Assembly (NCBI GenBank): GCA_019661865.1
Contig: JAIFWJ010000005.1
Coordinates: 1 to 41,285, forward strand
Direction: 5' to 3'
DNA length: 41,285 nucleotides
Source: Candidatus Parcubacteria bacterium
GTDB taxonomy: Bacteria > Patescibacteriota > Minisyncoccia > Phycocordibacterales > Zambryskibacteraceae
Every line of letters begins with the position of its first letter. The first letter of the stretch is position 1. The position numbers and the translations under genes are program-made. Below, piece by piece: positions 26,933 to 27,852 of the stretch. The notes under the pieces were generated by a model. It searched no databases and was not told the origin of the DNA. It saw nothing but the letters and a program-made list of their open reading frames with translations.

Positions 26933-26953
26933 TTTGTAAGTTTATCAAATAGT

Positions 26954-26981
26954 AAGGGCGCCGTTGGTGTGCGGCGCCCTT
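26954..26981 (-). other. GC-rich hairpin, possible terminator/attenuator upstream of prfB
   Basis: AAGGGCGCCG-TTGGTGTG-CGGCGCCCTT, 10-bp perfect stem 22 nt upstream of the prfB start; only a weak T-tract. Confidence 0.55.
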
Positions 26982-27337
26982 CTGTCAGTAGCAGTGATGA
27001 GTTATCACAGGCTATAACTAGAGCCGAACTCTGCAAGCCAGACTGCTATGCGCAGAATACTTGCTTTACCACTCTGACAGAGCCATATGACCAGAGACAA
27101 ACATGTCTCCTCCTTATACCGGCCAGGTATAGGACCAGTGCACCTTACTCAACTCTCTACCTCTTTACTTGCTTCATTGAGCAAAGCATGACCGGGTGTC
27201 AAGACCGCATGCTGGAACTCTGGGAGAGGGATGCCACCTCTTACCCATCCGCTGCGGTGAAATCATTATGCCTCTATGGATAAATAAAACAAGTGCGTTG
27301 AAATATGAGTCTTTCTATAATATTATCGTTGTTCAGT

Positions 27338-27413
27338 GCCAAGATAGCTCAGTTGGTAGAGCACATCCATGGTAAGGATGAGGTCCCCGGTTCGATCCCG
27401 GGTCTTGGCTCCA
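27338..27413 (+). tRNA. tRNA-Thr(GGT)
   Basis: Acceptor GCCAAGA/TCTTGGC, anticodon arm CATCC-ATGGTAA-GGATG, T-arm CCCCGGTTCGATCCCGGG, encoded CCA. Confidence 0.95.
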
Positions 27414-27524
27414 TAATTCTTGGGATCGAACCGAGAGGGGTCGGGAGAACATTTGGTCTCCCGTGGAGGAAGGACTGGGAAAACCGTGGGTTTCCCAGAA
27501 GTGACATCCCGGGTCTTGGCTCCA
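27414..27524 (+). repeat. tRNA-3'-end-bounded two-hairpin element (att-like duplication)
   Basis: 19-bp direct repeat ATCCCGGGTCTTGGCTCCA at 27395-27413 and 27506-27524; 12-bp inverted T-arm copy CGGTTCGATCCC (27388-27399) / GGGATCGAACCG (27422-27433); internal hairpins GGGAGA..TCTCCC and CTGGGAAA..TTTCCCAG. Confidence 0.7.
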
Positions 27525-27540
27525 GTGATATAGTGTATAT

Positions 27541-27852
27541 ATGTCATTTGAGAATCCAGAAACATCAAACCGCGAGATCCTTATAGAAGCATTGAAAACT
27601 AAGGGTCTTGAAGATCCAGAAACTCGAGAGATGCTTATAAAGTGGACTGAGGATAAAGAGAATGAGGTCGAGAGAGAAGGAACCCGGGATGCTCAAATAA
27701 ATTTCGAATTGGAAAGAGCACAACTTTATCTCGATGCAGGTTACACTGATGATGCTATGCAGACACTTAAAGATGCTATGGATATTGCAACTAATGAAAA
27801 TAGAGATGATCTAGTCGAGTTAGTGCAGCAGAAAATAGATTCTTTGCAATAA
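27541..27852 (+). CDS. Hypothetical helical acidic protein (103 aa)
   Basis: ORF with TGATATAGT-N6-ATG; C-terminal TPR-like helix pair ELERAQLYLDAGYTDDAMQTLKDAMDIATNE. Confidence 0.65.
   Translation: MSFENPETSNREILIEALKTKGLEDPETREMLIKWTEDKENEVEREGTRDAQINFELERAQLYLDAGYTDDAMQTLKDAMDIATNENRDDLVELVQQKIDSLQ

Follow-up and report, generated by a model that had tools for sequence, protein, structure and literature searches.

Candidate integrative elements lacking protein-coding genes at tRNA and protein gene ends of Patescibacteria

A regenerated target gene accompanied by a displaced gene fragment is the signature with which Islander finds genomic islands in tRNA genes (PMC4383910). The window analysed here, the whole 41,285-nucleotide stretch of contig JAIFWJ010000005.1 from Candidatus Parcubacteria bacterium, contains a comparable arrangement in which an intact tRNA-Thr(GGT) gene is followed by a stretch complementary to its T-arm, two hairpins and a repeat of the tRNA 3' end. 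The results indicate that this locus belongs to a repeat family with the same layout in many relatives. The family is probably one of integrative mobile elements devoid of an open reading frame (ORF) that restore the gene they target and select it through base-pairing.

Layout of the tRNA-Thr(GGT) locus and of the repeat family

Throughout, A denotes the gene body and B the gene end, B1 being the end joined to the gene and B2 the second end beyond the element. The copy in the window is composed of the following parts.

27338-27413, + strand: tRNA-Thr(GGT), the intact target gene, A plus B1 (ARAGORN, Rfam)
27395-27413, + strand: B1, the 3' end joined to the intact tRNA-Thr(GGT), first copy of the exact 19-bp repeat ATCCCGGGTCTTGGCTCCA
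27414-27421, + strand: spacer of 8 nt, TAATTCTT
27422-27433, + strand: guide of 12 nt, GGGATCGAACCG, exact reverse complement of the T-arm at 27388-27399
27437-27442, + strand: core motif GGGGTC, almost invariant across the family
27442-27463, + strand: core hairpin 1, CGGGAGA..TCTCCCG (covariation, 100 aligned copies)
27463-27473, + strand: core motif GTGGAGGAAGG, almost invariant
27476-27497, + strand: core hairpin 2, TGGGAAAACCGTGGGTTTCCCA, with a bulged A (covariation)
27499-27505, + strand: tip of 7 nt, AAGTGAC, like the end of A (GTTCG..) and with a central defect relative to the guide
27506-27524, + strand: B2, the second tRNA 3' end ATCCCGGGTCTTGGCTCCA (exact repeat), joined to the former downstream flank, which is orthologous to that of an element-free relative

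Both the exact 19-bp repeat and the inverted T-arm copy followed by two hairpins had been reported in a first-pass annotation of the window and were confirmed at these positions. The annotation also looked to homologues at other tRNA loci and in relatives and to their covariation; homologues were found, both core helices covary, and the sequence is clearly not unique. In single-stranded DNA of the locus the inverted T-arm is predicted to pair with the tRNA T-arm with a z-score of -3.7, and 0 of 200 shuffled sequences were equally stable. The predicted RNA fold pairs the guide with the T-arm and B2 with the 5' acceptor strand.

The core is present five times in this 0.6-Mb genome (G000), the four other copies being located after tRNA-Gly(TCC), tRNA-Gly(CCC) and tRNA-Tyr and between tRNA-Cys and tRNA-Leu. 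A covariance model of the core detected it in 12 of the 31 genomes of the window's taxonomic family and, at the level of the order, in 96 of the 297 genomes sampled, with at most 13 copies per genome (genomes of about 1 Mb). The elements are common in Patescibacteria, as they occur in a third of the order's sampled genomes. In the phylum sample the same model found the core in 18 of 381 genomes, some of them outside the class, and it is rarer in other classes of Patescibacteria. A pattern scan of contigs representing one genome per species gave matches almost exclusively in Patescibacteria, with Kaiser-, Taylor-, Nomura-, Zambryski-, Yonath-, Wolfe- and Vogelbacteria among the named groups; a Streptomyces match (L094) was dropped as chance. 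Different genomes carry elements at different targets, and presence is patchy.

The covariation of the core helices was evaluated with the 100 aligned copies, in which two-sided changes were found in 111 cells versus 33 in shuffles; 98.8% of the cells were paired, as opposed to 25-76% when slid. The elements, located at the ends of tRNA genes and further essential genes, measure about 100-250 bases and encode no protein. Since the distance from the tRNA end to the core is 8-121 nt and the core itself is about 65-90 nt, there is no room for an integrase gene. The core matched no family in searches with Rfam covariance models at gathering and relaxed thresholds, and the element gave no match to the group I core (RF00028) even at E up to 5. 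The strict pattern had 0 matches in viral contigs, while 7 contigs retrieved with a looser pattern all contained one unrelated sequence preceding a gene; the phage and plasmid records searched contained no copies. No earlier description was found in the open-access literature on the Candidate Phyla Radiation (CPR)/Patescibacteria, a search whose coverage excluded subscription journals and preprints.

Individual copies depart from the common form. Locus L038 (G000:C3:31773-31843) is a bare core between tRNA-Cys and tRNA-Leu, 99% identical to the window core over 67 bp, without guide and without gene-end copies; in genome G015 the same two tRNA genes are just 1 nt apart. At L090, L106, L113 and L198, hairpin 2 is extended and contains the module GGGYGACC..GAAGUACYCUYGUGG, by eye like the bulged-G (loop E) RNA motif.

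The locus set consists of 163 distinct loci, about 160 of which were read individually, and the order was constant: A-B1, spacer, guide, core, tip, B2. At 111 of the 163 the element lies within 150 nt downstream of a tRNA gene, and almost every isotype is represented. Other targets are transfer-messenger RNA (tmRNA) and the 3' ends of rpmG, rpsI and rplL, while antisense copies are located at the 5' ends of lepA, fusA, murD, dnaX, an RNase H gene and a glycosyltransferase gene, names of protein genes being read from the translations. At these targets the contiguous A-B1 gene appears intact, with the element directed away from the gene body in either direction of transcription; the gene body is always on the guide side. 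A minority of loci have no recognisable target. A terminator-like hairpin is located between gene and guide at 55 of the 111 tRNA loci, and the antisense copies at gene 5' ends oppose transcription and have no obvious promoter.

The guide is matched to its target. The longest stretch of upstream DNA exactly complementary to the guide had a median length of 11 nt at 156 loci compared with 6 nt for guides swapped between loci. At tRNA loci the median match to the 17 T-arm positions was 12.5 for the locus's own guide and 10 for foreign guides (p=4e-20, a value that is indicative only since the loci are related to each other). At non-tRNA loci the guide fits its own gene instead, over 16 nt for example at L085 and L293; guide length across loci is about 9-19 nt. 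The tip beside B2 resembles the end of A and is identical to it in 0 of 69 tRNA loci. It reads GTGAGAT or GTTCGATAGCGAAGCG where A ends in GTTCGAT, and GTTCTTAT where A has GTTCAAAT; the rpmG tip is TGCTTGTGG for TGCAAATGG and the rpsI tip CCGCAAGTGG for CCGCAGTGG. Since the tip resembles the end of A yet never equals it, the guide pairs well with the A-B1 junction and with a central defect with the tip-B2 junction. The pairing pattern is observed directly, and the meaning given below to the central defect is presumptive. The arrangement in the window is not due to chance, since the core is a repeat family, the same layout recurs in many relatives, and the guide and repeat statistics exceed controls.

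Among other observations at these loci, the guide and B2 of L119 and L192 fit initiator tRNA, with a TATAAT-like promoter, GTGCCAATCCCGTCCYACGAGTGCAAC and a terminator in place of the missing upstream tRNA. At L056 (G004) and L057 (G018) about 180-215 nt, probably an intron, appear to interrupt tRNA-Thr(GGT) after position 36; no Rfam group I match was obtained there at the gathering score. At L009 (about 1340-1500, G007) the intact tRNA-Thr(GGT) is immediately preceded by tandem copies of a 5' portion of tRNA-Thr, accompanied by GC-rich inserts (GCCAAGATAGCTCAGCCCCGACGAGCGAAGC...). In the window, approximately 350 bp between a prfB-like gene and the tRNA (26935-27300) contain no recognised gene and no Rfam match.

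Second gene ends and the empty orthologous site

Direct repeats at the 156 loci were up to 60 nt long versus at most 12 nt in the control. At tRNA loci B2 matched at 11 or more of 13 positions in 69 of 108 cases (51 perfect), compared with 3 of 107 in the control. B2 is decayed at the remaining tRNA loci, about a third, as expected of a displaced fragment. The 24 protein-gene pairs of B1 and B2 differ by 94 synonymous and 10 non-synonymous codon changes, and 7 of 16 shared Ser codons are switched between AGY and TCN. Both protein-gene ends appear to be under coding selection now or to have been until recently. The switches between Ser codon boxes, together with differing N-terminal variants, suggest that B1 and B2 come from different species. 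At L352 (G326), three consecutive lepA starts (MANIRNF, MSIRNF and MNIRNF) lie beside one diverged element, a result that would fit serial integration of carried-in replacement ends, as if two integrations had occurred; element-free relatives vary similarly between species at the lepA start position. Long identical repeats continue beyond the gene end in L270 (60 nt), L085 (42 nt), L088 (32 nt) and L087 (30 nt), suggesting that 30-70 bp are duplicated when an element arises at a new target. The guide at L270 is short (9 nt) and partly provided by the end of the repeat.

An empty site was identified in G007, a genome of the same genus, in which a small gene comes directly after tRNA-Thr(GGT), with tRNA-Thr(CGT) next and no element. 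The protein encoded by the small gene is homologous (35% identity, 63 residues, E=7e-6) to its counterpart beyond B2 in the window, a 103-residue small protein at 27541-27852 with only weak TPR-like similarity that has its homologue between the same two tRNA genes. On the basis of this gene order and the homologous downstream protein, the window carries approximately 111 extra bases at the site. Insertion with duplication of the gene end is well supported.

The att-like target duplication suggested in the first-pass annotation is close to what these results support, to which are added the regenerated gene, the displaced fragment around the insert and the empty orthologous site. The other suggestions fared less well. 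The core is not tRNA-derived, as would be required of a tRNA-derived miniature element, since it occurs at protein genes and tmRNA with guides matching those. Nor does an encoded CCA mark the element, because it likewise terminates tRNA-Thr(GGT) in G007 and G008, where the gene carries no element. That the element is generally an RNA transcribed together with the tRNA is doubtful in view of the terminator-like hairpins and of the 5'-end copies placed against transcription.

Proposed mechanism and alternative explanations

The existence of the family, its layout, the target-matched guide, the intact adjacent gene, the second gene end and the empty orthologous site are apparent in the genomes themselves. 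From these features we infer movement as a unit, B1 as the carried end, single-stranded DNA as the active form and a host enzyme as the recombinase. The mobile unit would comprise B1, a replacement gene end with its terminator or upstream region, followed by the guide, the core and the tip. The guide would be complementary to the target junction between A and B, at which the unit would insert, regenerating the target gene as A-B1 and shifting the original end, B2, to the far side as in islands of tRNA genes. The guide and folded core would stand in for the usual integrase-specific att recognition. Integron attC sites are recombined as folded single strands with helical defects, an idea borrowed here for the model. 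In one folded strand, most likely single-stranded DNA, the guide would pair with the junction and the tip-B2 arm would pair imperfectly with the same guide, with the exchange performed by a host-encoded recombinase. A role at the level of DNA, modelled on the folded single strand of IS608 (PMC5934647) or on integron attC sites, is more economical than one at the level of RNA because of the terminator-like hairpins at half of the tRNA loci (55/111) and the antisense copies with no obvious promoter.

Integration of an ORF-less element is favoured by the occurrence of one core at more than 160 loci in constant order with a target-specific guide and covarying core helices, by targets on both strands relative to transcription with the gene body intact on the guide side, and by the empty site in the congener together with the patchy distribution. 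The codon differences between B1 and B2 are like those between orthologues of different species and point to a B1 that is carried in. A host Xer-like enzyme is possible, although unproven, since each of 12 copy-rich genomes (12/12) contains one or two Xer-like recombinases.

Several results weigh against this explanation. Xer-like recombinases are also present in 14 of 14 control genomes, and no other candidate enzyme follows the elements: Y1 transposase is absent from the copy-rich genomes G153, G133, G138, G140, G042, G066 and G071, reverse transcriptase is absent from G000 and most copy-rich genomes, neither tracking the elements, and the IS110 Transposase_20 domain is absent from 11 of 12 copy-rich genomes. 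GC content at third codon positions (GC3) and pairwise distances in rpmG gave no clear signal for or against a foreign B1. No excision, circle, movement or transcript was observed, and renewal of the guide and B1 at a new kind of target is unexplained by the model. Lastly, the possible bulged-G motif seen by eye in the extended hairpin 2 of L106, L113 and L198 would favour RNA over single-stranded DNA.

An RNA is central to an alternative in which the element is a tiny intron-like, possibly self-splicing RNA. The guide would act as a group I internal guide sequence, pairing with the end of the 5' exon and the beginning of the 3' exon; splicing would join A to B2 with the same tRNA or protein as the result, leaving B1 as a back-up end upon early termination. 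The order of 5' exon, guide, structured core and 3' exon is as expected, B2 retains coding sequence in most protein genes, the predicted RNA fold pairs the 5' acceptor strand with B2 and the T-arm with the guide, and group I introns are present at some neighbouring loci. Such splicing was initially the leading idea and was displaced by the antisense insertions at lepA, fusA, murD and others (dnaX and the RNase H and glycosyltransferase genes), where B2 still encodes the right residues. Terminator-like hairpins ahead of the guide, decay of B2 at about a third of tRNA loci, the lack of a match to any ribozyme family and a core far smaller than that of group I introns also argue against it, and we consider this explanation unlikely. 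An equally low probability is given to a small self-copying insertion element with a long target-site duplication (30-70 bp), for which B1 and B2 would be identical at birth and diverge in place afterwards, the complementary stretch being created on insertion. The long identical repeats beyond the gene end at L270, L085, L088 and L087, and the short guide of L270 partly derived from the repeat end, are in agreement with this proposal, which may still describe the birth of an element at a new target. However, in-place divergence hardly accounts for the Ser-box switches or the unequal lengths of the lepA starts, a useless copy should lose its reading frame, and neither transposase nor reverse transcriptase tracks the elements.

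The conserved structured core and the complementarity to highly expressed genes could also be accounted for by a resident, selected and immobile RNA with a regulatory or processing role at tRNA and ribosomal-protein genes, with the complementary stretch controlling transcript folding or 3' processing. This is very improbable given the patchy presence (12 of 31 family genomes), targets that differ between genomes, empty orthologous sites, the occurrence of a 99%-identical core elsewhere in one genome, at an unrelated locus, and the antisense placement at gene 5' ends. Integration of an ORF-less, gene-restoring element is the explanation retained here. It is tentatively proposed, at somewhat less than an even chance, that the family represents a protein-free class of mobile element in which a folded strand of about 100 nt, either single-stranded DNA or RNA, carries a guide directing its own integration at conserved gene ends, with a spare gene end that spares the host. 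If integration is guide-directed, the elements would offer a testable minimal system and a natural, compact form of guide-directed insertion. Either way, the ends of tRNA and ribosomal-protein genes appear to be hot spots of hidden mobility in these hard-to-culture organisms.

Comparison with known systems

The elements resemble the tyrosine-integrase islands of tRNA and tmRNA genes (PMC4383910) and the dusA islands at gene 5' ends (PMC4482086) in that a gene-end copy within the insert restores the target, a displaced fragment is left, and tRNA, tmRNA and protein genes serve as targets. They differ from tyrosine-integrase islands, which extend over kilobases, in being about 100-250 bp without an integrase gene, and in using one core for dozens of targets together with a target-complementary guide. 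With the IS200/IS605 group, which includes IS608 (PMC5934647), and with its hairpin-only derivatives, they share subterminal hairpins, ORF-less forms and target choice through base-pairing with a guide next to a hairpin; however, the guide is about 9-19 nt rather than about 4, and presence is not tied to a Y1 transposase. Furthermore, IS200/IS605 elements insert without target duplication adjacent to a fixed short motif, whereas here the gene end is duplicated and the targets are diverse. A structured non-coding module with target-matching sequence in a mobile element is also found in IS110 bridge-RNA elements (PMC11208160), although the present elements are without a recombinase gene and the two-loop bridge RNA was not seen. 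Bacterial group I introns (PMC3984707) likewise have a guide that pairs over an exon junction and tRNA targets, but the elements have no group I core match, leave the gene uninterrupted, occur in antisense placements and have a core of only about 65-90 nt. They differ from integron attC sites and cassettes in that the guide varies with the target, there is no cassette gene, and no R/L box consensus was recognised by eye. The combination of island-like gene restoration, a target-matched guide and no encoded enzyme is not known to us elsewhere. Since every known class tested fails a defining feature, the elements may be of a categorically new kind; should a host Xer enzyme move them, they would be better classed as a variant of integrative element.
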